In this document: one piece after another, positions 2,989 through 4,104 of the stretch
Position numbering within the stretch: the first letter of the stretch is position 1
How the letters are laid out: each line of letters starts with the position of its first letter
Source of the DNA: Burkholderiales bacterium RIFCSPHIGHO2_12_FULL_61_11
GTDB taxonomy: Bacteria; Pseudomonadota; Gammaproteobacteria; Burkholderiales; Burkholderiaceae_C
Reading direction: 5' to 3'
Assembly (NCBI GenBank): GCA_001770785.1
Contig: MERZ01000351.1
Coordinates: forward strand, 1 to 14,712
DNA: 14,712 bases
Program-made: the position numbers and the translations under genes
The notes under the pieces: model-generated
Database searches by the model: none
What the model saw: the letters and a program-made list of their open reading frames with translations, nothing else
What the model was told of the DNA's origin: nothing

Positions 2989-4104
2989 TCAGGCACAGCA
3001 GGCATCGATGGCCGCGCGCACCAGCGCATCGGGCGCAGCGCGCACGACCGCCTTGCCGGGCCCCTCAATCAGCACAAAGCGAATCTCGCCGGCCTCGGAT
3101 TTTTTGTCGATGCGCATCAGGTCCAGGTAACGCCCGGCATTGTCAGTGATTGACAGCAGCGGCGCCTTGACGGGCAGCCCGGCGCGCTGAATCAGCCGCG
3201 TGAGGCGTTCGACAAACGCCTGGTCGACCAGGCCCAGACGCTGCGACAGATGCGCCGCCATCACCATGCCGCAACCGACGCCTTCGCCGTGCAGCCAGTT
3301 GCCGTAGCCCAGCCCGGATTCGATGGCATGGCCAAAGGTATGGCCAAAATTCAAAATCGCGCGCAGACCCGACTCGCGCTCATCCTGCCCGACGACCCAG
3401 GCCTTGATTTCGCAGCTACGCTAAATCGCATGCGCTAGCGCGGCGGGATCTTTCGCCAGCAGCGCATCAAGATTGACTTCGATCCAGTCGAAAAATGTCA
3501 TGTCGGCAATCGGCCCGTATTTGATGACCTCGGCCAGCCCGGCGCTCAGCTCACGCATCGGCAGCGTCGCCAGCACATCCAGATCACAGACCACCAGCAG
3601 CGGCTGGTAAAACGCCCCAATCATGTTCTTGCCCAGCGGGTGATTGATGGCGGTCTTTCCGCCCACTGAGGAATCAACCTGCGCCAGCAGGGTGGTGGGC
3701 AATTGCACAAAGGGCACGCCGCGCATGTAGCTGGCGGCGGCAAACCCCGTCATGTCGCCTACTACGCCGCCGCCGAGGGCGAACAGCACCGTCTTGCGGT
3801 CGCAGCCGTTTTGCAACAGCGCATCAAAAATAAGCTGTAAGGTCGGCCAGTCTTTGTAAATCTCGCCATCAGGCAAGCTCAGCAGCAGCACCTTGGCATA
3901 GCGTGCCTGCAGCGCCTTCATGAGCTGCGCCGCATACAAGGGCGCCACCGTCGTATTGGAAACCACCAGCGCGCAAGCGGCTTGCGGCAGCTGCTGATAG
4001 CTGAGCGCGCTGCCCAGCAACTGGCTGCCAATGACGATGGGATAGCTGCGCTCGGCCAGATCGATTTGAACCTGCGCCGCCACGTTGGGAGAATTTGCCT
4101 TCAT
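2989..4104 (-). pseudogene. aroB: 3-dehydroquinate synthase gene interrupted by one in-frame TAG
   Basis: AroB is a cytoplasmic NAD- and zinc-dependent enzyme that converts DAHP to 3-dehydroquinate, the second step of the shikimate pathway. The full frame from 4104 spans 371 codons, normal for AroB, but codon 228 (3421-3423) is TAG. Before it lie the nucleotide-binding region LPDGEIYK (77-84), GGGVVGDMTGF (111-121), PTTLLAQVDSSVGGKT (136-151) and the first zinc ligand, E192 (AEVIKYG). After the stop the same frame runs on with RSCEIKA, LNFGHTFGHAIE (H255) and LHGEGVG (H272), so two of three zinc ligands lie beyond it. There is no frameshift and no second lesion. A Q (CAG), K or similar residue is expected at 228, so a single substitution explains it. 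The end at 2989 is TGA. No strong ribosome-binding site precedes the start. It could be a dead gene, a read-through gene or a sequencing error. Confidence 0.9.
3421..3423 (-). other. Premature amber codon in aroB
   Basis: On the minus strand the codons read GCG ATT TAG CGT AGC TGC, giving A-I-stop-R-S-C. Homologous AroB proteins have an ordinary residue at the stop position and continue with RSC.IKA. TAG also serves as the normal terminator of the neighbouring aroK (4208-4210) and lipoprotein gene (4748-4750), so TAG is not generally reassigned here. The base after TAG is C. Confidence 0.92.

Follow-up and report, generated by a model that had tools for sequence, protein, structure and literature searches.

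An aroB gene (3-dehydroquinate synthase) that is open over its whole length except for one in-frame TAG raises the question of whether its bearer has lost the enzyme, translates through the codon, or simply shows a wrong base in an assembly. The stop is most likely nothing unusual: either the assembly is wrong at this base, or the mutation is rare and private. The locus lies in a window of 14,712 bases, comprising the first 14,712 of the 17,208 bases of contig C351, from a draft genome (G000; 416 contigs totalling 3.77 Mb, completeness 93.79%, contamination 2.81%) that we infer to be a bin from a metagenome. For the first AroB piece, which precedes the stop, the closest relatives with a name are Polaromonas (L002, 87%; L003, 77%). 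Before a lone internal stop in such a draft genome is given a biological reading, it needs comparison with further assemblies of that organism.

The aroB frame, its TAG and its counterparts

The aroB gene occupies positions 2989..4104 on the minus strand and comprises 371 codons including one TAG, followed by TGA. Translation of the minus strand from 4104 to 2989 yields 227 residues, the TAG as codon 228 (3421..3423, minus strand), 143 residues and the TGA, and in this assembly the window therefore contains AroB without a single uninterrupted frame. The translation and its coordinates confirm the first-pass annotation, which had described an aroB that is preserved except for one amber codon in its frame. 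The first 227 codons (3424..4104, minus strand) encode the PF01761 domain, E192 and the first 39 positions of the DHQS C-terminal domain, and the last 143 codons with the TGA (2989..3420, minus strand) encode the remainder of that domain with H255 and H272; the C-terminal Pfam domain spans the TAG, at residues 189-336 of the read-through. The motifs AEVIKYG (from residue 191), NFGHTFGH (from 252) and WLHGE (from 270) carry E192, H255 and H272, which we take to be the zinc ligands, and the claimed preservation of motifs on both sides of codon 228 stands with each of these residues at its claimed position.

The read-through protein scores 163.5 bits with PF01761 (cut-off 24.2) and 168.4 bits with PF24621 (cut-off 27.6), and taken separately, the two pieces exceed the cut-offs of PF01761 (first piece) and PF24621 (second piece). 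Identity to the AroB proteins L083-L085 of the genus is 86.8-89.0% for the first piece and 86.6-90.2% for the second, which rules out a chance frame as the source of the pieces. The read-through also matches 19 distinct sequences of solved structures, headed by the dehydroquinate synthases 3okf and 3zok. The window gene agrees with the known AroB family in size, both domains, motifs and aroK neighbourhood, and differs from it by one TAG, at codon 228. A split enzyme made of the 227-residue protein and a re-initiated C-terminal piece could draw on a TTG-started frame of 121 amino acids after the stop; however, the break interrupts the Pfam C-terminal domain and leaves residue 192 on one side and 255 and 272 on the other, none of the relatives read in frame has a split at codon 228, and we give this explanation almost no credence.

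Residue 228 itself is variable among 141 AroB proteins (Q in 73, R in 42, K in 19 and E in 7). A stop at this residue occurs in none of 109 relative loci, which contain 108 distinct first-piece sequences and include one locus (L074) that was read out of frame and is uninformative. Within the genus, AroB is matched in 84 of the 87 genomes; an in-frame stop is present only in G000 and in none of the 83 others with a match. AroB comes in two pieces in G032 and G036, neither piece having an internal stop; in G036 (G036:C1:1386799-1387912) the two pieces overlap, as from a frameshift. The family-wide set has an AroB match in 390 of 399 genomes, with internal stops given as 'none' for all matches listed except that of this genome, and among 12 of 24 papers listed on aroB and stop codons, none dealt with an interrupted aroB, judging by title or abstract opening. 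In the sequences compared, no assembly but that of G000 shows the stop.

The top match to the AroB read-through query was the public protein P0001, which has 371 amino acids and one member sequence and is encoded on three contigs, the longest of 15,749 bases; since C351 has 17,208 bases, none of the three is C351 at its present length. P0001 and the window frame agree at 370 of 371 residues; the exception is 228, a Lys in P0001 and TAG in the window. The query carried Q at this position, hence the Lys was not derived from it. Residues 183, 319, 364 and 365 are common to the window and P0001 and absent from the 140 other AroB proteins compared. When the 227-residue piece served as query, P0001 was again first among the matches listed. 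Judging from this agreement, P0001 is almost surely encoded by the same gene as the window aroB, and if so, this gene exists in intact copies.

These matches bear on several claims of the first-pass annotation. Its proposal of a wrong base call or a very recent event is supported by P0001, with its 370 equal residues and three contigs. It had regarded reads or resequencing with a sense codon at the TAG as decisive against a real stop; what was found comes near to this at the protein level, namely an AroB on three public contigs that is identical but for a sense codon at this position. Its suggested origin of the TAG from CAG fares less evenly: CAG is the commonest codon among relatives at this site (26 of 109 loci), but the near-identical P0001 has Lys.

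Termination, suppression and the shikimate pathway

The first-pass annotation had argued that TAG is not globally reassigned in this organism, and this is borne out by aroK and a lipoprotein-like gene, both of which are terminated by TAG. Release factor RF1 is intact (481.8 bits, cut-off 423.25, no internal stop), and TAG ends 39 of 246 long frames in a 363 kb sample of the genome, a count in which some frames may be antisense and for which the first piece of aroB, with 244 open codons, is itself long enough. The PylS model, whose cut-off is 178.15 bits, matched only weakly (23.9 and 20.2 bits), and in 12 of 14 control genomes likewise all matches were below the cut-off. Reassignment of TAG, or its use for pyrrolysine, has in its favour only the open frame on both sides of the codon and the thought that the Lys of P0001 could be pyrrolysine written as K; with TAG as a normal terminator, RF1 present and PylS far below its cut-off, it is largely refuted and its probability is close to nil.

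Amber suppression, one of the ways out offered by the first-pass annotation, found no support, as the anticodon CUA occurs in none of the 36 tRNAs found in the genome, an incomplete set that is without Tyr and Ile tRNAs; no tRNA genes were found within the window. Functional read-through or suppression that supplies enough full-length AroB would be compatible with the similar degree of conservation of the parts before and after the stop, and with the presence of Q, R, K or E at residue 228 in the 141 proteins, which suggests that many inserted residues could work. On the other hand, such conservation is equally explained by recency of the change or by an error, and both the termination evidence and the lack of a CUA anticodon in the recovered tRNAs oppose it. 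That the claim of functional read-through is not supported follows also from the variability of residue 228 and from the lack of a TAG there in any relative read in frame. We consider read-through or suppression very improbable in general, and slightly more improbable still the specific case of a real TAG that dominates in one population, with aroB still expressed, under selection, via natural amber suppression or leaky termination.

Constraint on the two parts of the gene was compared in 17 gap-free alignments out of 31 relatives tried, with L002 and L087 being one genome. Mean dN/dS was 0.129 before the stop and 0.108 after it, and the relatives' own means were 0.075-0.187 before and 0.073-0.142 after. 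The value of 0.108 is slightly higher than the relatives' average after the stop (about 0.095) and lies inside their range, hence nothing points to drift in the part that follows the stop. At the 156 columns that are invariant among the 141 AroB proteins, the window deviates at none. With these values before and after the stop and no invariant column changed, the gene shows no relaxed constraint of the kind that would mark a decayed pseudogene.

A second aroB had also been named among the things the organism would need, and none was found. One AroB was found in the 93.79% complete genome, and it is marked with '1 TAG' where its match extends across codon 228; PF01761 and PF24621 have one match each, both to the window gene, and the archaeal-type DHQS family PF01959 has no match. 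The search for a further aroB returned no plasmid matches in 'near' mode. Other genes of the pathway are present in open frames, namely aroK, aroC in two copies, the aroE N-terminal domain and aroQ. The aroC copies are L186 (G000:C10:5356-6360) and L187/L188 (G000:C389:5491-6469), and their proteins are only 62% identical, which makes it probable that one of them comes from another organism, on a contaminant contig; aroQ and one aroC both lie on contig C10, which in a contaminated bin may belong to another organism. A suspected frameshift in the C389 aroC was dismissed, the interruption being a run of 19 N.

A probable consensus error or a possible recent nonsense allele

We favour a wrong consensus base in an otherwise ordinary aroB, with a probability that we put at roughly 0.55. 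A wrong base in the consensus of one metagenome bin would turn a sense codon at the variable residue 228 into TAG, and the living population of a Polaromonas-like environmental bacterium would have an ordinary functional aroB and the full 371-residue dehydroquinate synthase. An error is put somewhat ahead of a real allele because only one aroB copy was found in the genome, because other pathway genes are present and because P0001 is found on three contigs. It also fits the lack of the stop in every relative read in frame and the constraint retained behind it. A near-identical sequence without the stop exists elsewhere, as fits a consensus error, but a young real allele would show the same.

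Cooley and Wright (2024; PMC11017572) describe spurious internal-stop pseudogenes that arise in low-coverage assemblies. These artefacts have in common with the window aroB an isolated stop, an otherwise intact gene and a draft assembly, as well as a near-identical sequence elsewhere that is free of the stop; in that study RefSeq assemblies and reassembled reads were compared, whereas the window aroB is known from the assembled consensus alone.

The quality of the assembly was assessed on a sample of 18 contigs or contig parts (362,928 bases) picked as tRNA-bearing. The sample contains 45 runs of N, which are probably scaffold gaps, some of which may be masked stretches; the window contains none. 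Together with the 2.81% contamination and the two dissimilar aroC genes, these runs mark a rough draft, which favours a consensus error. A codon-usage scan for stops flanked by coding-like sequence returned eight candidates in the 363 kb, including aroB. The other seven, judged from their translations, appear to be gene junctions (such as tolQ/tolR, rplN/rplX and ubiX/ubiD, recognised by eye) or antisense mirrors. Of the codon positions in long frames the scan lets through about 31%, and a few further lesions could hide; within that reach, and on these tRNA-bearing contigs, the assembly is not visibly riddled with internal-stop errors.

The dgt-like HD-domain gene (1700..2959, minus strand), an open frame that is the downstream neighbour of aroB, provides a second comparison with public sequences. 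Its protein is identical to the public protein P0142 over 399 residues except at residue 169, where the window has I and P0142 has T, and the I is also present in relatives; the one-residue difference is thus probably real strain variation. The best public dgt match is on a single contig of 2,185 bases and is one residue off, and as a marker for counting TAG-bearing assemblies the gene was uninformative. The window without N, the scan without any other accepted lesion and the dgt difference all speak against a consensus error.

The latter two observations are at the same time points in favour of a recent nonsense allele, by which a strain or dominant variant would have lost AroB and become an aromatic auxotroph fed by its neighbours, with sister cells intact. 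Such an allele would also account for the coexistence in public data of interrupted and full-length versions with no other amino-acid difference, as for a very young mutation. Null aroB alleles are known from laboratory genetics to produce aromatic auxotrophs, and likewise a stop that precedes the two zinc-ligand histidines should abolish activity. Unlike the alleles of established null-aroB auxotrophs, the window allele shows no sign of fixation or spread. Against a real allele stand the stop-free AroB matches of the 83 other genus genomes (those of G032 and G036 being in two pieces) and the open frames retained for aroK, aroC (with a run of N in one copy), the aroE N-terminal domain and aroQ. 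In addition, no identical truncated protein of 227 amino acids was among the best 120 matches listed for the 227-residue query, with the genome's own proteins possibly lying outside the database. A recent nonsense allele is accordingly a serious competitor that we nevertheless hold to be the less probable of the two; if it were genuine and the dominant variant, it would point to very recent loss of chorismate synthesis in a free-living bacterium.

Other features of the window

Family matches in the window were obtained for aroB, aroK, dgt and the transposase only, and the remaining gene names were assigned by eye. The minus strand carries pilMNOPQ-like, lipoprotein-like, aroK, aroB, dgt-like and transposase frames. 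The transposase gene (118-1434, minus strand; PF13751, PF05598) is near the contig start and is overlain by a long antisense frame (439-1464, plus strand). On the plus strand, a long frame at 11771-14173 is, by eye, a class A penicillin-binding protein look-alike.

The aroK gene (shikimate kinase; 4208..4735, minus strand; PF01202) is an open frame separated from aroB by a perfect 15-base inverted repeat, with arms at 4141-4155 and 4191-4205 that are unique to this site in the 363 kb sample. Folding of the segment 4136-4210 as minus-strand RNA gives a hairpin with 18 pairs and -40.2 kcal/mol (mean of shuffles -22.3, z -5.8), which is perhaps a terminator-like or RNA-processing element.
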